Below the pieces are notes generated by a model that saw only the letters and a list, made by a program, of their open reading frames with translations, was not told the DNA's origin and ran no database searches. Source: Hymenobacter qilianensis (GTDB lineage Bacteria > Bacteroidota > Bacteroidia > Cytophagales > Hymenobacteraceae). From it: a stretch of DNA of 64,000 bases. The translations under genes and the position numbers were made by a program. The stretch lies in contig NZ_CP060784.1 of assembly GCF_014489555.1 (NCBI RefSeq), positions 2,294,001 through 2,358,000 of the forward strand, written 5' to 3'. Shown piece by piece: positions 26,037 through 47,075 of this stretch (its first letter is position 1; each line of letters starts with the position of its first letter).

Positions 26037-26044
26037 TAACTTTG
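26037..26044 (+). promoter_or_regulatory. -7 promoter element of thiamin receptor gene
   Basis: TAACTTTG matches TAnnTTTG exactly and lies immediately before the riboswitch, so transcription would begin about where the aptamer starts. No clear -33 TTG at the expected distance. Confidence 0.6.
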
Positions 26045-26047
26045 CAA

Positions 26048-26156
26048 CGAAGTTTAGGGTGCCCTACCAACTTAACCGGTCATTTTGCCGGCAGCGGGGC
26101 TGAGATCATACCCATTGAACCTGATCCGGGTAATGCCGGCGAAGGGAACAAACGGT
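26048..26156 (+). promoter_or_regulatory. TPP riboswitch (THI element)
   Basis: Aptamer for thiamin pyrophosphate in the leader of the TonB receptor gene. The conserved parts are present in order: AGGGTGCC at the 5' side, a variable stem (CCGGTCATTTTGCCGG), GGGGCTGAGATCATACCC, then GAACCTGATCCGGGTAATG and GCGAAGGGAAC at the 3' side; GTTT/AAAC can close P1. It should lower expression of the downstream gene when TPP is abundant. No intrinsic terminator is visible before the start codon, so control is more likely at translation. Confidence 0.93.
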
Positions 26157-26224
26157 CCGCGAACGTAAAAGCCGCTCCTCCGACCCCTGGAAGGCGGTTC
26201 GTTCCACTTTTCCATCTTTCACTT

Positions 26225-28722
26225 TTGAAAAAGTACGTATTGACCGGCGCGGCGCTTCTGGCGCTAGCCGGCGCGGCATGGGCACAAGGCCCCGTGTCTG
26301 GTAGGGTAGGGTCGTTTTTGCCGCTTAACGCAGAAGTCACGTCCTTACCAGGAGCCACTATCTATCTGGACGGCCAAGCAGTAGGGCAGACAGATGACAC
26401 GGGAGGATTTATTCTGCCGGCCGTATCACCAGGTAGCCATAAGCTACGCATTACCTCCATTGGACATACGCCTTTGGAAACCAAAATCACTGGTCAAATC
26501 GCCCCGCAAACGCTGGACTTCACGTTGGAGGGAGAGTCAGTGGTTACCGGCGAAGCGCTGGTAACGGCTTCTCGGGCCAGCGACCGGACCGCCACCGCTT
26601 ACTCCAACCTCAGCCGCGAAGACCTCGACAAGCGCAACTTCGCTCAGGATCTGCCTTACCTGCTCGACCAAACGCCTTCCGTCGTCGTGACCTCCGACGC
26701 CGGCGCGGGCGTGGGCTATACCGATATCCGGATTCGGGGCACGAGCAACACGGGCATTAACATGACCATTAACGGCGTGCCGCTGAACGATCCGGAGTCG
26801 CGGGGGCATTTTTGGTGAACCTGCCCGATCTGGCTTCGTCGGTGAGCAGCTTGCAGGTGCAACGCGGGGTGGGCACCAGCCAGAACGGGGGCGCAGCTTT
26901 TGGAGCCAGCATCAACATCTCGACGCTTGATGTACGCCGCGAAGCCTACGCCGAAACCCAGAACGCCTACGGTTCTTTTAACACTTGGAAAAACAACGTG
27001 CAGTTTGGCACCGGGCTGCTTGGGGGGCATTTTACCGTTGATGGCCGCCTTTCGCGCATTGCCACCGATGGCTACATGAACCGCGCCGAGTCAGATCTGA
27101 AGTCGTATTATCTGGCTGCTGGCTACCAAGCCAAGAATACGCTGGTGAAGTTTATCACCTTTTCGGGCCGCGAGAAAACCTATCAAGCCTGGAACGGCGT
27201 GCCCGAGCCCGCTCTGACCGGCAACCGCGACCTGCTGCAAACCTACGTGGACAACGGCGAGCTTTCGACCACTGATGCTGAGCGCGTGCTGCAAGAAGGT
27301 CGCCGCTACAGCTACTACACCTACGACAACCAGACCGACAATTACCAGCAAAACCACTACCAGCTCCACCTCTCGCAGGGCCTGGGTCAGGACTGGAACA
27401 TTGGGGCGGCTTTGCACCTCACGCGCGGCTTTGGCTACTACGAAAGCTTCCGCGCCAACCGGCGGTTCTCGGCTTACGGCCTTCCCAACGTAGTGCTGGG
27501 CAACCAGACCATTTCCCGCACCGACCTCGTGGACCAAAAGTGGCTGGATAACTACTTCTACGGCGGCACTTTCGCCCTGAACTATCAGCCCAAAAATAAC
27601 GACAAGTTTGAGGCAACGCTCGGCGGGGCCGTCAACCGCTTTGATAACGACCACTACGGCGAAATTATCTGGGCCCGCTACGCTTCTACCAGCAACATTC
27701 GTCAGCGCTACTATGCCAATGAGGCCGCCAAATCGGACTACAATACCTACGCTCGCGCCACCTGGCAGGTGCTGCCCCGGCTGGGTGTGTACGGCGACTT
27801 GCAGCTCCGCCACATTGATTATAGCATTGATGGAGTGGAGGACGACCAGAACGACGTCACTACCCGCGCCAACTACACATTTTTCAACCCCAAAGCTGGC
27901 GCTACTTTCTCCCTGGCCGAAGGGCAGCAACTCTACGCCAGCTTCGCTGTGGGCCAGCGCGAGCCCGTGCGTGCCGACTTCACCGACCGCCCCGCCGGCG
28001 ACCAAAGCGCGAAACCCGAACGCCTCGAAGACTTTGAAGCCGGCTACCGCCTGAACCTATCGGACCTGAACCTGCTGACGCCGCGCACGGCGTTGCGCCT
28101 GGAGGCCAACTACTTCTACATGAACTACCGCAACCAGCTTGTTGCCACCGGCCAGCTGAATGATGTAGGCACCGCCCTGCGCACCAACGTAGCCCGCAGC
28201 TACCGCACCGGCCTGGAACTGACCGGCTTTGTGTCGGCCGACGATAAAATCAGTCTGAGTAGCACGCTCACGCTCAGCCGCAACCGCATTCTGGACTACC
28301 GCGACGTTTCTTACGACGAGGAGTTTAACCCCGTAGTTGCCGCCGAAGGCCGCACGACCACCATTTCCTATTCGCCGTCGGCCGTGTCGGCGCACACGCT
28401 GGAGGGGCAGCCGCTGAAAGGCATGCGCCTGGCGCTGCTCTACAAAACAGTGAGCCGCCAGTATCTCGACAACTCCGCCAGCGAAGCCCGCAGCATTCAG
28501 CCTTACCAAGTGCTCGATTTTCGGGTGCGCTACGCACTTGGCCCCACGTTTATGAAGGAAATAGAGCTGGCTTTGCTGGTCAACAACGTGTTCAATCGCG
28601 AGTACGCGGCCAACGGCTACACCTACGGCTACCTCGGCGCCAGCGGGCAGCAGGAAACTTTCAACTGGTATTACCCCCAAGCTACACGCAACTTCCTCGT
28701 TTCTGTGGGGCTGAAGCTGTAA
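26225..28722 (+). CDS. TonB-dependent receptor, probable thiamin uptake (frame broken)
   Basis: Outer-membrane receptor of 832 residues after repair. The start is a TTG at 26225 followed by KKYVLTGAALLALAGAAWAQ, a signal peptide. A carboxypeptidase-regulatory-like beta domain (about 30-105, TDDTGGFILPAVSPGSHKL) precedes the plug (about 115-230, with IRGTSNTGINMTINGVPLND) and the barrel, ending NFLVSVGLKL with an aromatic-rich C-terminus. The frame breaks at the GG pair 26814-26815; adding one G reads SRGHFWVNLPDLASS. The TPP riboswitch upstream argues for uptake of thiamin or a thiamin precursor. Confidence 0.9.
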
Positions 28723-39424: not shown

Positions 39425-40477
39425 ATGCGCGAAGCTTTTCTCACTGGTGGCAACGACCACATGGACCCCTCCGAGAAGGAGATTGACAAGGCGCTGCGGC
39501 CGCTCAGCTTCTCTGACTTCACGGGTCAGGATAAAATCGTCGAGAACCTGAAAATATTCGTGGCGGCTGCTCGTCGGCGCGGCGAGGCCCTCGACCACGT
39601 TCTGCTGCACGGACCTCCTGGTCTGGGCAAAACCACTTTGTCGCACATCATTGCGGCCGAGCTGGAAGCGGGTATCAAGATGACCAGCGGCCCGGTGCTT
39701 GACAAGCCTTCCGACCTGGCCGGCCTGCTGACCAACCTGGAGCCCAACGACGTACTCTTCATCGATGAGATACACCGCCTGAATCCGGTAGTGGAAGAGT
39801 ACCTGTACTCGGCCATGGAGGATTACCGCATCGACATCATGCTCGATTCAGGTCCGAATGCGCGCTCCGTGCAGATTTCGTTGTCGCCATTTACGCTCAT
39901 CGGGGCTACTACGCGCTCCGGCTTGCTGACCTCACCGCTCCGGGCGCGTTTTGGTATCAATGCCCGCCTGGAGTATTACGATTCGGCTTTGCTAACCAGC
40001 ATTGTGAAGCGCTCAGCCGAGATTCTGAATACGCCTATTCACGACGATGCAGCTTTCGAAATTGCCCGCCGCTCGCGTGGTACGCCGCGTATTGCCAACA
40101 ACCTGCTGCGCCGTACCCGCGACTTTGCCCAGATAAAAGGCACCGGCACCATCACCGTGGACATCGCCCAGTTTGCCCTCAACGCTCTCGACGTAGACCA
40201 GAACGGCCTCGACGAAATGGACGTGCGCATCCTGACCACCATCATCGACAAGTTTAAAGGTGGCCCGGTGGGCTTGAGCACTATCGCTACGGCCTGCTCC
40301 GAGGAGTCGGAAACTATTGAGGAAGTGTACGAGCCCTTCCTGATTCAGGAAGGCTACATCAAGCGCACCTCCCGAGGCCGCGAAGCTACAGAAGCTGCTT
40401 ACCGGCACTTGGGTAAGCTCATGCCGCAGCATCTGCGCGGCAACTCGCCCGGCGACTTGTTTGGAGAGCCTGTTTAA
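39425..40477 (+). CDS. ruvB: Holliday junction branch migration ATPase RuvB
   Basis: AAA+ motor of 350 residues that drives branch migration with RuvA. Walker [16 protein letters not shown], Walker [18 protein letters not shown], sensor 1 [20 protein letters not shown] with arginine finger context, and sensor 2 [18 protein letters not shown]. The C-terminal winged helix contains [21 protein letters not shown]. Intact and of normal length; ruvA and ruvC are not in the window. Confidence 0.98.
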
Positions 40478-40503
40478 TTGCGTTTTCGCTGTAAGCAGTA
40501 AAG

Positions 40504-40544
40504 AAAGAGCTGAGAAGCATCTTGAGATGCTTTTCGGCTCTTTT
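40504..40544 (+). terminator. Rho-independent terminator of ruvB
   Basis: AAAGAGCTGAGAAGCAT, short loop, ATGCTTTTCGGCTCTTTT; the arms pair with two G-U pairs and end in a U-tract, 26 nt after the ruvB stop. Confidence 0.75.
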
Positions 40545-40595
40545 GCTTGCAAGATATTTGTCGCTGGTGCCTGCAAGCTTGGATAGTAGCGTAAA

Positions 40596-40649
40596 GCAGG
40601 CTTATTTGATATGCTACCCGCTATTCACGTAGCCTGCCAGTAGCGGGTA
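40596..40649 (+). other. Interleaved inverted repeats beside the cassette
   Basis: Two perfect pairs cross each other: GCAGGCT (40596-40602) with AGCCTGC (40631-40637), and TACCCGCTA (40615-40623) with TAGCGGGTA (40641-40649). They end 8 nt before the cassette boundary at 40657/40658. They may fold as alternative hairpins or a pseudoknot and could mark the receiving site for the cassette. Confidence 0.55.
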
Positions 40650-40657
40650 TCTAAATG

Positions 40658-41793
40658 TTGGTGGCAATTATAACAGACATACTGCAATGATAATAAGACA
40701 AGTAATAATTTTAGTTATGACAATCTCTATTTTGACGAGTTGCAGACGCGGCTACAAGATTGAAGACGACAAAGTTTATTATGAATCTTGGAATGAAGGA
40801 AGTGGTCAAAACAAGCGAATAATTGAACAAGCAGACGCAAAGACTTTTAAAGAATTAACTTTTGACTGCGATTGCGGCTTTAAGTTTGGTAAAGACAAAA
40901 ATCATCTGTTTATAGACGGAGAACTTATAAAAAATATTGACCCAAACACTTTTAAGTTTATTGGAAATTATATTTTCCGTGACAAAGACTCAGCATATTT
41001 TTTTGGTTTTTATAATAACTTAAATGATTGTGTAATTAAGGGTGTTAATCCAAGCAAAATAAAATTGATTAAATATCCTTGGGCAAAAGCGGATAATTTT
41101 TTAATCCATGGAGGAGATATTGTAAGTATTGACGATATAAATGAATTTGCTCCTATTGACGATGATTGGGGAAAGACAAAAAAATACATTATTAATAACA
41201 ATCAAATTTTATACGGAGCAGATGTAGAAACTTTTAAAATCACAAGTGCTTTTCAAGGTAAAGACAAAAAAATTAATTACGAGTTCGGTATTATTAATGA
41301 AGACGATTTTAAAAAGATAAGTTTTAAAACCTTTGATTTTGTCAATAAAGATTTCTGTCGAACCGAACCGATTGTGTTTGTTGATGTTTACGACAGTTTA
41401 GTTTCATATATAGAAGATAAGAATGAACCTATCGAGATTGTTGAAAAGCTTAAACAAATGGGTTTTATATTGAATAATACGATGTATCTAGATTGGGGTG
41501 GAGAATCAAAAATGATCAGGGCTTCTATGATAAGTAGTAAATGTAATTGTATCGTTGAAAAACTTTACCGTTACGATTATGGAAAACCTTCTGAAACAAA
41601 AAACATATTTAAAGTGACAGAAAGAATTTACTGTGAACCGAGAGAGAAATAGAATAGGAATAACTGCCACCAACAAGGGTTTTGCAATAGTGGGGCGAAA
41701 CTGCAAAGTTCAACGGTAGTTCTTTGAGTCAATTGTTGTACAAAATTGAAGATTTGTGTTTCGATTACCCCACCATCGCAAAGCCCCGAGACG
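40658..41793 (+). mobile_element. Integron-like single-gene cassette, AT-rich
   Basis: 1136-bp unit with one gene packed edge to edge: the gene starts 29 nt inside the left boundary and ends 12 nt before the terminal hairpin. Base composition is far more AT-rich than the flanks. The left end GTTGGTGGCA (40657-40666) is the exact reverse complement of TGCCACCAAC (41665-41674), the outer left arm of the hairpin. In a circle the right end ...GAGACG would join TTGGTGGCA and complete the hairpin, the logic of an integron attC site. Boundaries are placed between G and TT at GTT on both sides, by analogy. No integrase is in the window. Confidence 0.7.
40687..41652 (+). CDS. DKNYY-like cassette-borne lipoprotein
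   Basis: Protein of 321 residues. The N-terminus MIIRQVIILVMTISILTSC is a lipoprotein signal with the acylated Cys at 19. The body consists of repeated units of the type DKNxVYY: KIEDDKVYYE, FGKDKNHLFIDGELIKNIDP followed by TFKF, IFRDKDSAYFFGFY, each with a D(P/A)xTFK turn. This fits DKNYY-domain proteins, whose function is unknown. Codons are strongly A/T-ending, unlike every neighbouring gene, consistent with import in the cassette. No promoter is obvious inside the cassette, so it may depend on read-through or be silent. Confidence 0.8.
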   Translation: MIIRQVIILVMTISILTSCRRGYKIEDDKVYYESWNEGSGQNKRIIEQADAKTFKELTFDCDCGFKFGKDKNHLFIDGELIKNIDPNTFKFIGNYIFRDKDSAYFFGFYNNLNDCVIKGVNPSKIKLIKYPWAKADNFLIHGGDIVSIDDINEFAPIDDDWGKTKKYIINNNQILYGADVETFKITSAFQGKDKKINYEFGIINEDDFKKISFKTFDFVNKDFCRTEPIVFVDVYDSLVSYIEDKNEPIEIVEKLKQMGFILNNTMYLDWGGESKMIRASMISSKCNCIVEKLYRYDYGKPSETKNIFKVTERIYCEPREK

Positions 41794-41797
41794 TTAG
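41665..41797 (+). repeat. attC-like hairpin at the cassette end
   Basis: Imperfect long palindrome. Left arm: TGCCACCAAC, then AAGGGTTTTGCAATAGTGGG and GCGAAAC (to 41701). Right arm: GTTTCGATTACCCCACCATC (from 41758), GCAAAGCCCCGAGAC and GTTAG (41793-41797). Inner pairing of GCAAAGTTCAA (41703-41713) with TTGAAGATTTG (41746-41756). The outermost 5 bp are CCAAC/GTTAG in the integrated form and 10 bp perfect in the inferred circular form. Arms are interrupted by unpaired bases on one side, as in attC sites. Confidence 0.7.
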
Positions 41798-41863
41798 AAG
41801 TGTATGTAATGATAGGTACACAATTTCCTTCGCTATAATCAGCCGCTACTGCCTAACTATTGG

Positions 41864-41897
41864 AACGCTCCGCTACCGGCGGGGCGTTTCGTTTTTT
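41864..41897 (+). terminator. Terminator-like hairpin upstream of queG
   Basis: AACGCTCCGC, five-base loop, GCGGGGCGTT (with one A-T/G-U mix), then TTTCGTTTTTT. It lies just beyond the cassette and 17 nt before queG; it may end transcription coming from the cassette side. Confidence 0.6.
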
Positions 41898-41914
41898 CAG
41901 CCAACCTTTGCCTG

Positions 41915-42904
41915 ATGCTTGTCTCCGACCTTATCCGCTCCGAACGAACTGCCTTTATTAAGCGTCGGGCGGCGGAGCTGGGCTTTATGTATTGCGGCAT
42001 CTCGAAGGCGGAGTTCTTGGAGGAAGAAGCGCCCCGCCTCGAAAACTGGCTCAACCGCCAGATGCACGGGCAGATGGGCTACATGGCCAACCATTTCGAC
42101 AAGCGCCTCGACCCGCGCCTGCTCGTAGACGGTGCCAAGTCGGTGATTTCGCTGCTGCTGAATTACTACCCCGCCGAGGAAGACCAATTGCCCCCCGACA
42201 CACTGCAAATCAGCAAGTACGCCTACGGCCGTGATTATCACTTCGTCATCAAGGACAAGCTCAAAACCTTGCTGGCCGATATTCAGCAGGAGATAGGCGA
42301 AGTAGGCGGCCGCGTGTTTGTCGATTCGGCGCCGGTGATGGATAAGGTGTGGGCCAAGAAAAGCGGCCTGGGTTGGGTAGGCAAAAACTCCAACCTCATC
42401 ACGCCCGGCGTGGGCAGCTTCTACTTCATCGCCGAGCTGATCATCGACCTTGAATTGGAGCCAGACGGTCCCATCAAAGACTACTGCGGCACCTGCCGTA
42501 AGTGCATGGACGCCTGTCCCACCGATGCCATTTCCGACCCATACGTGGTGGATGGCAGCAAATGCATCAGCTACTTCACCATCGAGCTAAAGGACCAGAT
42601 TCCGACGGAGGTGGGGGGCAAATTGGGCAACTGGGTATTCGGCTGCGACATCTGCCAGGACGTGTGCCCCTGGAACCGCTTCGCTAAGCCGCATCAGGAG
42701 CCGCAGTTTCGGGCTCACCCCCAGCTTAAGGAAATGAATACCAAGGACTGGCAGGAGATTACCCACGAGCTGTTCACGGAGTTGTTTCGGCAGTCGGCGG
42801 TGAAGCGCACGGGCTACGCCGGCCTGACGCGCACGATTCAGTTTGTCACGGAGCCCCAAGCCGATTTTCTATACACGGAAAAAGCCCCCCGCGAGGATGC
42901 CTGA
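41915..42904 (+). CDS. queG: Epoxyqueuosine reductase QueG
   Basis: Cobalamin-dependent iron-sulfur enzyme of 329 residues for the last step of queuosine tRNA modification. Two 4Fe-4S motifs: [15 protein letters not shown] (about 190) and [12 protein letters not shown] (about 247). Also seen are [35 protein letters not shown] and [14 protein letters not shown]. The length suits the short form without the C-terminal HEAT repeats. The stop codon lies inside the 5' arm-loop of the terminator. Confidence 0.96.
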
Positions 42905-43396: not shown

Positions 43397-44278
43397 CTAG
43401 TACGTGAAAATACTTACCAGTGAGGTAGCCGTGCTGGCTGGGATGGGCTCGTCGAAGGCTTCGGCCACTTTTGCCACTGCTACCACTGTATTTAAAGGGG
43501 CCTGATCGAAGGGCACCTGCCGGAGACCCGCCACAAACTGGTTAACCAAACCCTCGCCCGCATATACGGCGTCGGTTTTGCCGGCTACCGCGATGCTGGT
43601 ATCGGTGGGGCTCACCCAACTCTTCACATTTGCCCCCCGCGCCCGCCGCATACTACGAATATGAGCCGCGTGCCGAGCCTCCACGGAGTGAATACGCAGA
43701 GCTGCTTCCAGCAAGGAGTTATCCGTTTGCAGAAAACCAACCTGCCCTTTGTAGGCTCGTACGCCGGCATCTTCCAGGGTCTGGGCTACTTGCAGAAACG
43801 TATCGAAATTGGTAAACACATCTGCAAACAGGGCGGGCTGAGCGCCATTCTTGCTGCCTGTAAAGTCGAAGCGGGGCTTGGTGGGCAGTGTGCCACCCGA
43901 GGCCTGAATAACGCGCTCCAGGAACCGCACATGCTGCTGCTCGTGGCGATAGATGGTTTCGATAGCGGGGCGTGTGCCGGCCGGAAAAAAGCTGGCAGGT
44001 ACGCTGGGCGCCCCAGCCACCAACCCCAGGGCGCGGGCGTAAAACTCGCTCTCCAGGTATTCCAGCACAAGCGCGAGGTTCAGGGAGTCGAGGATAGTGC
44101 GGATGTCGCGGGCCTGGGCTGGCATAATGGCCGTGCCTAAGGCCACCGGCAACGCCGCCAGCGCCGCCTTCCGGCCTAGCTTGCTCAGGGGGGCAAAAGC
44201 GGCCTGCCGCGAGCTCAGGCGGTCGTATAGGGTAGGATCAACTTCGGCCAGATCGGCGAGGAGTTTGAGAATATTCAT
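43397..44278 (-). CDS. Ferritin-like domain protein (pair member B1)
   Basis: Ferritin-like four-helix protein of 293 residues, with E/H residues on successive helices: LVLEYLESEFYARAL, ETIYRHEQQHVRFLERVI, TFLQVAQTLEDAGVRAYKG and IHSVEARHAAHIRSMRR. These match the di-iron-type ligand pattern (E...EQQH...E...EARH). The N-terminal part (NILKLLADLAEVDPTLYDRL, then AALAALPVALGTAIMPAQA) looks like an unusual leader with a hydrophobic, probably export-related segment. Partner of the gene at 44302-45015, 23 nt upstream. Iron binding is inferred from family; the true activity is unknown. Confidence 0.85.
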   Translation of the reverse strand: MNILKLLADLAEVDPTLYDRLSSRQAAFAPLSKLGRKAALAALPVALGTAIMPAQARDIRTILDSLNLALVLEYLESEFYARALGLVAGAPSVPASFFPAGTRPAIETIYRHEQQHVRFLERVIQASGGTLPTKPRFDFTGSKNGAQPALFADVFTNFDTFLQVAQTLEDAGVRAYKGQVGFLQTDNSLLEAALRIHSVEARHAAHIRSMRRARGANVKSWVSPTDTSIAVAGKTDAVYAGEGLVNQFVAGLRQVPFDQAPLNTVVAVAKVAEAFDEPIPASTATSLVSIFTY

Positions 44279-44301
44279 AACGCGGGAGTAACCGAAGACG
44301 C

Positions 44302-45015
44302 TTAGCCGGGCAGGCTGGCCGCCGAGACAGTAATGTTGAGAAAAGTATTTACCACGGCTATTACCTGAGCAGGCGACTTAGCCGCATCGAGCCCATCAAG
44401 CGCGCTGCCATCATTGGCAACTACATCGGCCGCAGCGAAGGAGTTAGGCAGAGCCAAATCACGGACCAGGGCAGCGTGGCGCGCTTCTACTGACGCTATT
44501 TTGCCCGCGATGCCCAAGTATACCGGATCGGTGAAAAGCTTGCCGGCGCCGTTATAAGCAGCTACCCCCAGGTCCTCCAGGGTTTGGGCGGCGGCAAATA
44601 CACCGGCGCGCGTGGTGAGCGTAAGCGAGCCGAAGTTAAATACAGCCGTACCGATGGCGCTCGTGCCCAGCGCAAACTTGAAGAACTCGCGGTGAATAAC
44701 CTCGTGGTCGCGCATATCGGTGAAGTAGGCCAACTCAGCGGCCGGCATATCGGCGGGGGGCGTGGCTACTACTTTATCGTAGAAAGCGGCCTCCAATTGC
44801 TCCAGCAGATAAGCATAGTTGAGCAGGCCGGTGTCGCCGGTGCCGAGAGTAAATGCCTGTTCGGGCGAAACCTCCGGGTTTTCGTCATCCTTGTCGCAGC
44901 CCGCCAATACCAAAGCTGATGATGCAGCCGTAGCGCCGGCTACTCTGAAAAAAGTACGTCTGCGCACCGGTCGCGCCGAAAACAGGCGAGAGAAAGAAGT
45001 AGATTTCGTATCCAT
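44302..45015 (-). CDS. Ferritin-like domain protein with Tat/lipoprotein-like leader (pair member A1)
   Basis: Ferritin-like protein of 237 residues. The leader has RRRTFFRVAGATAASSALVL then AGCDKDD: a twin-arginine-like pattern followed by a lipobox-like AGC. The domain has LLNYAYLLEQLEAAFYDKVV, MRDHEVIHREFFKFAL, AAQTLEDLGVAAYNGAG and IASVEARHAALVRDLAL. It is the first gene of a two-gene unit with 43397-44278 and a paralogue of 46254-47021. Confidence 0.86.
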   Translation of the reverse strand: MDTKSTSFSRLFSARPVRRRTFFRVAGATAASSALVLAGCDKDDENPEVSPEQAFTLGTGDTGLLNYAYLLEQLEAAFYDKVVATPPADMPAAELAYFTDMRDHEVIHREFFKFALGTSAIGTAVFNFGSLTLTTRAGVFAAAQTLEDLGVAAYNGAGKLFTDPVYLGIAGKIASVEARHAALVRDLALPNSFAAADVVANDGSALDGLDAAKSPAQVIAVVNTFLNITVSAASLPG

Positions 45016-45155
45016 AAAAGCGAAAGAATCAATCTAAAAAAGCCCCCAGAAGCCAAAGCGGGCACAGCACAAGCAAAGATAGCCCGATAAGCCAACTCCG
45101 GTTAGGGGTAGGAGCCGGCAAAGCGATAAAGTGTTGCATGGTGGAGCTAAAAAAC

Positions 45156-45186
45156 AAAAAAGGACGACCCGTAGGCCGTCCTTTTT
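45156..45186. terminator. Rho-independent terminator
   Basis: AAAAAGGACGACCC, short loop, GGCCGTCCTTTTT, downstream of the ferritin-like gene at 45212 on minus. It splits the four ferritin-like genes into two transcription units. Another one-armed AAAAAAGCCCCCAGA lies nearby at 45036. Confidence 0.85.
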
Positions 45187-45211
45187 CAGGAAATAACTGT
45201 GAGAGCAGCGA

Positions 45212-46204
45212 CTAGATGAACGTGCTGCCAGTGATTACGAACGTACGAGCGATGTCCGATACAACTGGTACAGGTAGCGCCTCATCGAAGGCTTCGGAGA
45301 AAGCAGCCGCTGGGAAGTTTAAGGAGGCTAACGCCGTTTGTAGATTCACTCCACCTTGGGTCACATTTTCTTCACCGGGGAAGGTGATAACAGCAGGCGT
45401 ATAAGCTGGCGCAGCGCCCATAGCGTATACTGGGGCCGTTTGTGCTGGGGCTGGTCCGCCGCCGTCGTTGCCGGAAACCCAGCTCTTTGGCGAAGCGCTA
45501 CGGTCGGTGCCGGCAGCTGCGGTTTGCGAAGCGGCGTTGTTCATAGCACCGGCACGTCGCATCGTGCGGATACGCGAAGCATGACGAGCTTCTACCGAGT
45601 GAATATTCAGGGCAGCGGTTAGCACGTCTTTGTTGCTGGCCAAGTAAGGAGCACCACCTTTATAGGCACGTACGCCTGTATCCTCTAGCGCTTGAGCTAC
45701 GGCTAGGAAGGTGGCAGGAGCAGTAAATACCGTGGCAAACGGACCACCGGCTGCACCTTTGCCACCCGTAAAGTCGAAGGTATTGGCGGCTGGGGCAGCA
45801 ATGGCGTTGGTGCCGAGGGCCGTGCGCAGGAAGGCTACGTGCGCGGTTTCGTCGTTACGAATTTTCTCCAGGGCCGCCAGGTTGGTGGCGCTGAAGCCAG
45901 CACGCAGGGCAGTTTGTGCAGCGGTAGCCGTAGCGCCCATTGCGCCGAGGCCTTGGTTGTAAAAGGCGGCCTCCAGATATTCCAGCTTCAAAGCGAAGTT
46001 GAGAACATCATTTACGCCGGGCGCCATGCTGGTTTGAGCATATGCCTTGTTCAGAACAGCACCGAACGCCATTGGAACGGCGGCGGCAGCCAGAGTTTTG
46101 CCCATGCCGCTCATGTGCTTGAAAATGCTGCGGCGGGAGTCAAGACGATCGTACACCTCAGGGTCTACTTTCTCGATTTCAGAAATTATTTGGAAGATGT
46201 TCAT
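45212..46204 (-). CDS. Ferritin-like domain protein (pair member B2)
   Basis: Paralogue of 43397-44278 with 330 residues. It begins MNIFQIISEIEKVDPEVYDR and has a hydrophobic stretch TLAAAAVPMAFGAVLNKAYA. Domain helices: FALKLEYLEAAFYNQGLG, LEKIRNDETAHVAFLRTAL, TFLAVAQALEDTGVRAYKGG and IHSVEARHASRIRTMRR. About 40 residues longer than its paralogue, mostly in a Gly/Ala/Pro-rich linker after the domain. It lies 49 nt after 46254-47021 on the same strand. Confidence 0.86.
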   Translation of the reverse strand: MNIFQIISEIEKVDPEVYDRLDSRRSIFKHMSGMGKTLAAAAVPMAFGAVLNKAYAQTSMAPGVNDVLNFALKLEYLEAAFYNQGLGAMGATATAAQTALRAGFSATNLAALEKIRNDETAHVAFLRTALGTNAIAAPAANTFDFTGGKGAAGGPFATVFTAPATFLAVAQALEDTGVRAYKGGAPYLASNKDVLTAALNIHSVEARHASRIRTMRRAGAMNNAASQTAAAGTDRSASPKSWVSGNDGGGPAPAQTAPVYAMGAAPAYTPAVITFPGEENVTQGGVNLQTALASLNFPAAAFSEAFDEALPVPVVSDIARTFVITGSTFI

Positions 46205-46253
46205 AACTACAAGTCAATGATTGAGTGGGGATGAAGACTACAAGCAACCTGCT

Positions 46254-47021
46254 TTAAACAAGGCCGGAAACATTCAGCTTAGAGCCTTCAGCCAAGAAGG
46301 TATTGGCTGCCGCTACAACCTCTGTTGGGGTTTTAGATATCTCTAAACCGCTGGAGTTAATCACATCGGTTCCAACGAAATTGCCTTCCATCAGCAAGTC
46401 ACGGATGATGGCAGCGTGACGGGCTTCTACCGAAACGATTTTGCCAGCTAGCAGCAAATAGAGAGGGCCGTTGCCAGTAGTAGAGATAAATCGGCCGGCA
46501 CCATTGTAAGCCGATACGCCTAAGTCTTCGAATGCCTTGGCGGCACCCAATACACTAGCCCGATCATTAAAGTTGATAGCGCTGAAGTTTGGAGTGAGGT
46601 CCTTAATAATAGCCGTTGGCGCTGCGCCGGTAATAGCGGCCTTAAAGAACTCGCGGTGAATAACTTCGTGATAATAGAGGTCGTCCAGAATTTGACGCTC
46701 TGCGCTGCTAGCATTCAGGCCAGTATAGTAAGAGCCCGTCCGCAGCTGCGTATAGAATGCCGCTTCTAGTTGCTCTAAGGCATAGGCATAGTTCAACACG
46801 CCAACATCACCTGAACCTACATTGACGGTGGTAGCACCGGGAGTAGGAGCTGGAGGCGTTGGATCGGCGAATACATCATCGTCGTCGCAACCCGATAGAA
46901 GTAAAGCCGTGGCGCCAGCCGTAGCACCGGCATACATGAAGAATGAGCGACGCTTGATGGGCACGTATAGCGGCTTATCAAAGCCAGTGTCGTCTCCGCC
47001 TGCTTTGGTGATTTTGGACAT
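46254..47021 (-). CDS. Ferritin-like domain protein with Tat/lipoprotein-like leader (pair member A2)
   Basis: Paralogue of 44302-45015, 255 residues from ATG 47021 (MSKITKAGGDDTGFDKPLYV). The leader has KRRSFFMYAGATAGATALLL then SGCDDDD, again arginines, a hydrophobic run and a Cys followed by Asp residues. Domain: VLNYAYALEQLEAAFYTQL, LYYHEVIHREFFKAAI, AAKAFEDLGVSAYNGAG and IVSVEARHAAIIRDLLM. First gene of the second pair. Confidence 0.86.
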   Translation of the reverse strand: MSKITKAGGDDTGFDKPLYVPIKRRSFFMYAGATAGATALLLSGCDDDDVFADPTPPAPTPGATTVNVGSGDVGVLNYAYALEQLEAAFYTQLRTGSYYTGLNASSAERQILDDLYYHEVIHREFFKAAITGAAPTAIIKDLTPNFSAINFNDRASVLGAAKAFEDLGVSAYNGAGRFISTTGNGPLYLLLAGKIVSVEARHAAIIRDLLMEGNFVGTDVINSSGLEISKTPTEVVAAANTFLAEGSKLNVSGLV

Positions 47022-47075
47022 GAGAAAAAAATTAGGGTGAAAAGTGAGGAAAAGTTTGGGCAATGGCTTTCCAGC

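Follow-up and report, generated by a model that had tools for sequence, protein, structure and literature searches.

The window analysed here, a stretch of 64,000 nucleotides from Hymenobacter qilianensis (contig NZ_CP060784.1), contains an AT-rich, single-gene unit lying between two host genes whose labels were assigned from the sequence, namely an upstream gene whose product we take to be RuvB and a downstream gene that we take to be queG-like. The features of the locus are as follows.

39425..40477, + strand: ruvB, host gene 5' of the insertion (ORF list)
40579..40657, + strand: attI-like site without integrase (orphan attI), ending at the crossover G (covariance model R2)
40657..40666, + strand: R' box GTTGGTGGCA, crossover between G40657 and T40658
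40658..41793, + strand: cassette, 1136 bp cut to cut, GC about 0.30
40687..41652, + strand: single cassette gene, DKNYY-family protein, 321 aa (ORF list, Pfam match)
41665..41674, + strand: R'' box TGCCACCAAC, opening the terminal hairpin
41665..41795, + strand: attC-like hairpin, R'' to the GTT of the right edge (DNA fold, covariance model R1)
41793..41795, + strand: right edge G^TT
41915..42904, + strand: queG-like host gene 3' of the insertion (ORF list)

Read directly from the sequence, both edges of the unit are G^TT, the left as ...tctaaatG^TTGGTGGCA with its G at 40657 and the right as ...gagacG^TTAG with its G at 41793. Over 10 nt, GTTGGTGGCA (40657-40666) and TGCCACCAAC (41665-41674) are exact reverse complements of each other. 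GC content, taken in windows, is 0.28-0.31 inside the unit vs 0.55-0.58 on either side. The unit is filled by one ORF (40687-41652, +) of 321 aa, whose product matches the DKNYY family PF13644 with 46.3 bits, above the Pfam gathering cut-off of 25, and in our own reading has a lipoprotein-like start (LTSC). Its ATG lies only 29 bases past the cut, and from this position we infer that the gene probably has no promoter of its own. Folded as single-stranded DNA (minus strand), the terminal hairpin reaches -24.3 kcal/mol, where shuffled sequences average -12.9 (z -4.19; 0 of 200 shuffles equally good), and it is followed by GTTAG and no T run. The core box GTTGGTG does not fit GTTRRRY, the classical core consensus of integrons. 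A scan of 40400-42000 against Rfam returned nothing close to any gathering score, and an exact pattern for the start of the hairpin had no matches in viral contigs.

An earlier note, made without database searches, had described a 1136-bp AT-rich one-gene unit with complementary ends and a GTTAG right edge. Direct reading upholds this description, except that the start it gave leaves the first G of the box (40657) one base outside. Farther along the window, positions 43397-47063 (minus strand) hold two similar-looking tandem gene pairs (293, 237, 330 and 269 aa), perhaps a duplicated pair.

An insertion absent from the same place in relatives

A ruvB match at E<=1e-100 was present in 60 of 61 genus genomes, and at each of the 30 ruvB loci that we read from among these 60 genomes, queG lay behind ruvB. 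The ruvB-queG gap of the 29 other Hymenobacter genomes consists of other DNA, measuring only 79-144 bp in 13 of them, and the attC and attI models gave no significant match there in any of the 29 (best other E 0.45). The window cassette and the attI-like stretch preceding it are an insertion, absent from this place in relatives.

The DKNYY gene is rare, with matches at 1e-10 in 3 of 395 phylum genomes including the window's own. A genome from another family of the same class (G348) encodes a homologue with 79% amino acid and 85% nucleotide identity, in a cassette that has the same start box and R'' box as the window and lies within an array, preceded by a hairpin and followed by another cassette; a further copy, in another genus of the window's family (G014), has a start box differing by one letter. 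By BLAST, relatives of the window hairpin occur in 11 of 200 family genomes, again counting the window's own. The window hairpin is 87-92% identical to hairpins at L002-L005 and L012, whose cassettes hold other genes, and where the same DKNYY gene occurs elsewhere, the box is kept and the hairpin interior is different. The hairpin interior (window 41675-41792; L331, L009, L002, L004 and L012) thus seems to be exchanged independently of gene and box.

A family of cassettes with covarying ends

The covariance model R1 was built from 22 hairpin sites, over which 15 of 21 helix pairs have changed on both sides. Its consensus has unpaired columns within the stem and a spacer of 2 vs 6 nt. R1 matches sites in 115 of 200 family genomes, the window's own included, and many listed sites lie far from the integrases found. 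The window hairpin scores 126.6 bits, a value that is not evidence because this hairpin was among the training rows; it is the single R1 match in its genome (strict filters; 16 of 708 candidates scored).

In another genome of the genus (G134), two hairpins lie in tandem directly behind a tyrosine recombinase gene, and 18 of 20 loci searched behind close relatives of this integrase gave cassettes. A scan of named genomes yielded 80 integrase loci; 19 were too short to test, the 61 with >=400 bp behind the integrase were given a first look, 31 of those were passed to a chain search, and the other 30 showed nothing that was taken further. Altogether 30 loci yielded 65 cassettes in the chain search (15 of 18 Hymenobacter-type loci and 15 of 62 others), always directly behind the integrase. 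Arrays range from 8 cassettes in a row within 8 kb in Flavobacterium amnicola, the maximum, through 4 in F. cellulosilyticum and 3 in a Sphingobacterium bin to 1 in Sediminibacterium.

Among the 65 cassettes, start and hairpin are exactly complementary over 9 nt in 54, and yet there are 46 distinct kinds of start box, composed of GTTR and 5 variable nt; GTTRRRY fits only 4. Hairpin length is 126-130 or 191-194 nt in 44. Because the chain search tolerated up to 2 mismatches and includes some weak links (hairpin energies as poor as -9; 2 mismatches in two cases), we trust a separate box test over the chain count. We also rely on this stricter test because a loose search for start/hairpin pairs at every GTT near the integrase placed 17% of 113 control stretches under -18. 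In the box test, hairpins were found without looking at the box, and 28 of 31 loci gave one (L098, L133 and L137 did not and are outside the 28; L098 also lacks a chain). Own-box matches amounted to 140 of 168 positions, with 18 of 28 loci exact, compared with a mean of 78 and a maximum of 107 in 10,000 shuffles. For the 15 Hymenobacter-type loci, 75 of 90 positions matched and 10 of 15 loci were exact, vs a mean of 43 and a maximum of 64 in 100,000 shuffles; 14 of these starts were taken from the attI rule and one (L094) from the first look. The 15 non-Hymenobacter starts, of which 13 gave a hairpin, came from the best first-look match and are not independent. What is conserved is the pairing of the box with R'', not the sequence of the box. 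Given the variety of start boxes, sequence-specific recognition of the box in double-stranded form is unlikely.

In cassettes of <=1600 bp (n=55), the longest ORF runs in the array sense in 52 and the median coding fraction is 0.91. Pfam matched something in 10 of 20 proteins picked from these 55, including an Mrr restriction enzyme, a Fic protein and two ankyrin proteins. Cargo at L105:9261-10175, L109:9286-9666, L092:9225-10055 and L088:9236-10297 comprises an Mrr-type endonuclease, Fic, HEPN and ankyrin, the HEPN match being weak and under the Pfam cut-off.

Two side observations concern the wider set of loci. In another genus of the family (L217, L218, L219 and L222), much shorter hairpins, roughly 60-70 nt by eye and ending in GTT, lie 5' of cassettes and could conceivably form a second attC size class. 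The 19 of 80 integrase contigs that end within 400 bp behind the integrase match (L093, L110, L116-L118, L127, L130, L141, L143, L144, L149, L151, L154, L157, L158, L161, L163, L164 and L167) might fit a picture in which repeated attC sites break assemblies, again only a possibility.

An array integrase without the IntI insert

The array integrase of G134 (L088:8001-9083) is a tyrosine recombinase of 361 aa. Close relatives (69-84% identity) occur in 15 further genomes of the 200-genome family sample, with only pieces in G190, and the complete set of six catalytic positions (R, K, H, R, H, Y) is invariant in an alignment of 17 sequences. The protein scores 189.4 bits against the IntI model TIGR02249, under its cut-off of 265, and 185.1 bits against the XerA model NF040815, under its cut-off of 220. 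Its alignment to the integron integrase of PDB 2a3v falls into two pieces, between which ~60 residues of 2a3v are skipped vs 18 of the query. Measured in 21 array integrases, the spacing from the catalytic K to HxxR is 64-65 residues, whereas 12 of 14 IntI proteins have 106; in Escherichia coli it is 68 for XerC and 72 for XerD. For 7 of 28 array rows the pattern gave no spacing, and stray values turned up in two other rows (5 in a row without an array, 37 in an IntI row), which were taken as a second match of the motif. The array integrase is without the insert of ~41 residues, termed I2, of IntI.

In a phylogenetic tree, the 14 IntI proteins form one clade (100/100) and the array integrases fall outside it. 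Bacteroidota proteins with and without arrays surround the IntI clade; support for its precise position is weak (86/36, 86/45), and the tree is rooted arbitrarily. L109, L153, L161 and rows <280 aa were left out of the tree, and every second IntI locus was taken. An AlphaFold model based on a 55-sequence alignment (pLDDT 87.4, pTM 0.64) replaced an earlier run with 13 close sequences (pLDDT 59.4). When residues 84-360 of the model were compared with known folds, the nearest was XerA (Z 23.0), with an rmsd of 15.8 that suggests a different domain arrangement; 2a3v gave Z 22.2 with an rmsd of 3.3 over 272 residues. Residues 1-63 of L088:8001-9083 form an extra N-terminal part, predicted as beta-beta-alpha-beta-beta-alpha and barely covered by the PDB comparison.

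No such integrase was found in the window's genome, which is 93.94% complete (0 matches at 1e-60), and TIGR02249 gave only pieces under cut-off there, which we read as Xer-like. Two Xer-like genes of this genome (L027 6205-6915 and L028 2078-2749), which by our own reading we take to be the XerD- and XerC-like genes, appear split by frameshifts. Within the window, the ORFs at 26042-26818 and 26812-28722 look by eye like one gene, and it is possible that the assembly holds indel errors. Canonical IntI above the cut-off was present in 105 of 395 phylum genomes, only one of which (G236) belongs to the window's class; the count does not give the share of the 395 that this class represents. Two broken-up copies of the integrase, each with an attI-like site, were seen on Hymenobacter volaticus plasmid NZ_CP095066.1 (L085), and distant relatives of the integrase on Chryseobacterium plasmids.

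attI sites with and without an integrase

The layout in Hymenobacter runs from the integrase stop through attI to ATG^TT and on into AT-rich cassettes, with 97-123 nt between the end of the integrase match and the attI crossover behind it (130 in a single case, where the match ended early). In sequence, this attI looks like a pair of inverted repeats with arms that vary from one species to another. A covariance model, R2, was trained only on 19 attI sites behind an integrase. It matches the window at 40579-40659 (27.9 bits, E 2.2e-5), with the last matched position in GTT; this is the listed one of two R2 matches in the genome. The window site is degenerate, its 27.9 bits standing against about 70-111 for listed integrase-side sites, which are mostly training rows. 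R2 also finds held-out orphan attI sites before lone cassettes (L200, L202, L207, L210, L212 and L229), again with matches running into the crossover GTT. In 15 non-Hymenobacter array loci, R2 found nothing at E<0.05 (best 0.051, minus strand of L139), so that, with this model, the attI can be recognised in Hymenobacter alone.

R2 matches occur in 72 of 120 genus genomes, with up to 10 in one genome, some counted on both strands. We read 40 attI matches lying away from a whole integrase, namely the window's and 39 chosen from the top of the list; integrase-side sites were passed over, as were some close to the end of a contig. The DNA behind each of the 40 is AT-rich (GC 0.24-0.41), and that before it has a higher GC (0.47-0.65). 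In 25, exactly in 20, the site is followed by a cassette that has both box and hairpin; the count allows one mismatch from a single GTT, and the 5 that rest on one mismatch may in some cases be due to chance. Judged by the AT-rich DNA behind them, none of the 40 sites is empty, which is not what a simple docking-site picture would predict. Integrase remnants lie within 400 bp upstream of 13 sites. None were seen at the other 27, and loss of the integrase is therefore unproven for most orphan sites, the window's included. The orphan attI ranked closest to its own genome's attI in only 4 of 18 cases, so that a match to the resident integrase is not supported. The data allow two readings of the window site, a decayed integron and an attI that travelled with its cassette, and do not decide between them.

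A proposed origin and its rivals

Our preferred explanation, which we consider likely, is that the window holds one cassette of a Bacteroidota integron system at an orphan attI, recombination itself being inferred and not shown. A tyrosine recombinase of the family found in other Hymenobacter, with a XerA/IntI-like fold and no IntI insert, would excise and insert promoterless single-gene cassettes that move as circles. In the circle, the cassette start (R') would complete the hairpin site opened by R''; the enzyme would then cleave the folded attC strand between its G and TT and link it to a double-stranded attI at the ATG^TT end. Later loss of the integrase in the window's lineage would have left the cassette stranded, as is suggested by the lack of any such integrase gene found in the genome. 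The boundaries, the complementarity and covariation of the ends, the arrays behind the integrase, and attI with its orphan copies are shown by sequence, as are the absence of the unit at the same place in relatives, the occurrence of the same gene in a remote array and the missing IntI insert. From the parallel with integrons we infer that the insert-less integrase carries out recombination and that attC acts in a folded, single-stranded form; that the orphan attI arose through integrase loss is likewise an inference. We saw no recombination event, circle or read junction.

The rival closest to this explanation, departing from it only in the last step, is that attI and cassette arrived jointly as a small mobile unit, for example by transposition or through an aberrant cut within attI. 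It is favored by the absence of any attI-like site or hairpin between ruvB and queG in 29 relatives, by the lack of empty attI among 40, by the finding that orphan attI sites are nearest to their own genome's attI in only 4 of 18 cases, and by the existence of cassette-borne attI fragments in class 1 integrons (PMC12901181). Against it, pieces of an integrase persist no more than 400 bp upstream of 13 of the 40 orphan sites, suggesting decayed whole integrons, and we regard joint arrival as a serious contender that falls short of an even chance. We think it unlikely that a canonical IntI moves the cassettes in trans and that the insert-less neighbouring recombinase is a bystander. The I2 insert is indeed stated to be necessary for cassette capture (PMC7790495), and canonical IntI is found elsewhere in the phylum (105 of 395 genomes); however, just one of these 105 (G236) falls within the window's class, the insert-less integrase lies directly before arrays at 30 loci, the Hymenobacter attI varies with the species, and the boxes mostly do not read GTTRRRY.

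Also improbable is Xer-type recombination of double strands, in which the hairpin would be a pair of inverted enzyme sites that never folds. XerC, XerD and XerA, relatives of the enzyme, act on double-stranded DNA, and XerA is the best structural match, but the box is free to vary (46 kinds in 65) while its pairing with R'' is kept (54 of 65 exact, and the independent box test), and helix pairs have changed on both sides at 15 of 21 positions. Insertion outside integrons at sites of the attG type has been described (Loot et al. 2024, cited in PMC12444791 and PMC12901181), which would allow a cassette in a chance genomic site whose flank resembles attI by coincidence. We consider this very unlikely, as the window flank is the listed R2 place of its genome with a match extending into the crossover GTT, and the same holds for the lone cassettes at L200, L202, L207, L210, L212 and L229. 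Finally, the unit could be an AT-rich gene with a terminator-like hairpin, acquired in some other way and no cassette at all, since a hairpin after a gene is commonly a terminator. This terminator-only reading was rejected and is all but excluded: the complementarity of the ends covaries between cassettes, arrays exist, and GTTAG rather than a T run follows the hairpin.

On the preferred reading, the proposals of the earlier note fare as follows. Its claim of an integron-type cassette with non-classical boxes held, many AT-rich single genes sharing the same end logic and only 4 of 65 fitting GTTRRRY. So did the absence of a local integrase, for the window's genome, with the correction that an integrase exists in relatives, directly upstream of arrays. 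The unit landed as a singleton, as claimed, at an orphan attI-like site and not at a chance site, because the 5' flank is an attI-like site such as lies behind the integrase in other Hymenobacter. The suggestion of a possibly distinct Bacteroidota system is supported, the recombinase family not being canonical IntI; circle formation and folded-strand recombination remain inference. The covariance-model search for the hairpin that it proposed has matches in 115 of 200 family genomes, while its fixed search tag (hairpin arms plus GTTGGTGGCAATTATA) would miss most members because the box differs between cassettes. Neither outcome that it named as refuting was met: the sequence is not conserved in place in all relatives, the gap lacking the unit in 29 genomes, and a mere terminator without end complementarity in other copies is contradicted. 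The objection of chance fails because the same complementarity recurs with different letters in many cassettes.

Relationship to integrons and other known systems

The system resembles the IntI integrons (TIGR02249) in that, in the window's relatives, an integrase gene is followed by attI and then by a tandem, same-orientation array of single-gene cassettes, in its G^TT edges and hairpin attC completed by the start of the next cassette, and in the additional occurrence of lone or orphan cassettes. Unlike those integrons, it has an array integrase that lacks the ~41-residue insert, scores under the family cut-off and carries an extra N-terminal part; boxes of GTTR and 5 variable nt instead of GTTRRRY; hairpins of 126-130 or 191-194 nt in 44 of 65 array cassettes; and, in Hymenobacter, an attI of two inverted repeats with species-dependent arms. 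The classical criteria that are met include an attI beside the integrase with G^TT (in relatives; the window site has no integrase), complementary R''/R' ends and tandem single-gene arrays (again in relatives; the window has one cassette). An IntI-type integrase with I2 and the consensus GTTRRRY were both tested and are not met, and for this reason we place the system outside the classical family, in all likelihood as a variant of integrons.

The closest fold is that of the XerA or archaeal-type Xer proteins (NF040815; PDB 5hxy, 4a8e; Z 23.0, 185.1 bits with a cut-off of 220). Xer recombinases resolve chromosome dimers at dif, whereas the array integrase gene precedes attI and cassette arrays and encodes an extra N-terminal part. 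An ‘integron-like’ subgroup of tyrosine recombinases has been described (PMC8138268), with no link of its insert-less members to attI or arrays in the sections bearing on it. CALINs and attG-inserted cassettes likewise are cassettes without a local integrase. Unlike the window, with one cassette behind an attI-like site, a CALIN needs >=2 attC sites (PMC9024848), and with one R1 match in the genome this criterion is not met. The IntI-specific domain has been called defining and necessary (PMC9668308), and the I2 helix has been presented as a requirement for capturing cassettes and as the innovation behind the ability of integrases to recombine folded single strands (PMC7790495). The IntegronFinder 2.0 study names one complete integron in Bacteroidetes, in Salinibacter ruber M1 (PMC9024848). 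We found no prior description of insert-less integrases with cassette arrays in the literature searched, outside of which lay preprints and most subscription journals.

Implications

A bolder reading is that the window's class runs an integron kind of its own that has been largely overlooked. It has three parts: folded attC hairpins would be recombined by a XerA-like integrase that lacks I2 and has a beta-beta-alpha-beta-beta-alpha part at its N terminus (residues 1-63); orphan attI-plus-cassette units would be scattered over chromosomes; and acquisition of the insert by a member of this family may have given rise to canonical IntI. We lean towards this reading with no great margin, and the leaning applies to the three parts jointly.

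Surveys using IntI models and the classical attC consensus seem to miss cassette traffic in Bacteroidota, as R1 matches in 115 of 200 genomes of one family indicate. With arrays, attI and covarying hairpin ends present in a natural family that lacks I2, the claim that I2 is necessary becomes directly testable, and the insert-less family may, as one possibility, be a living proxy for the state of integrases before I2.
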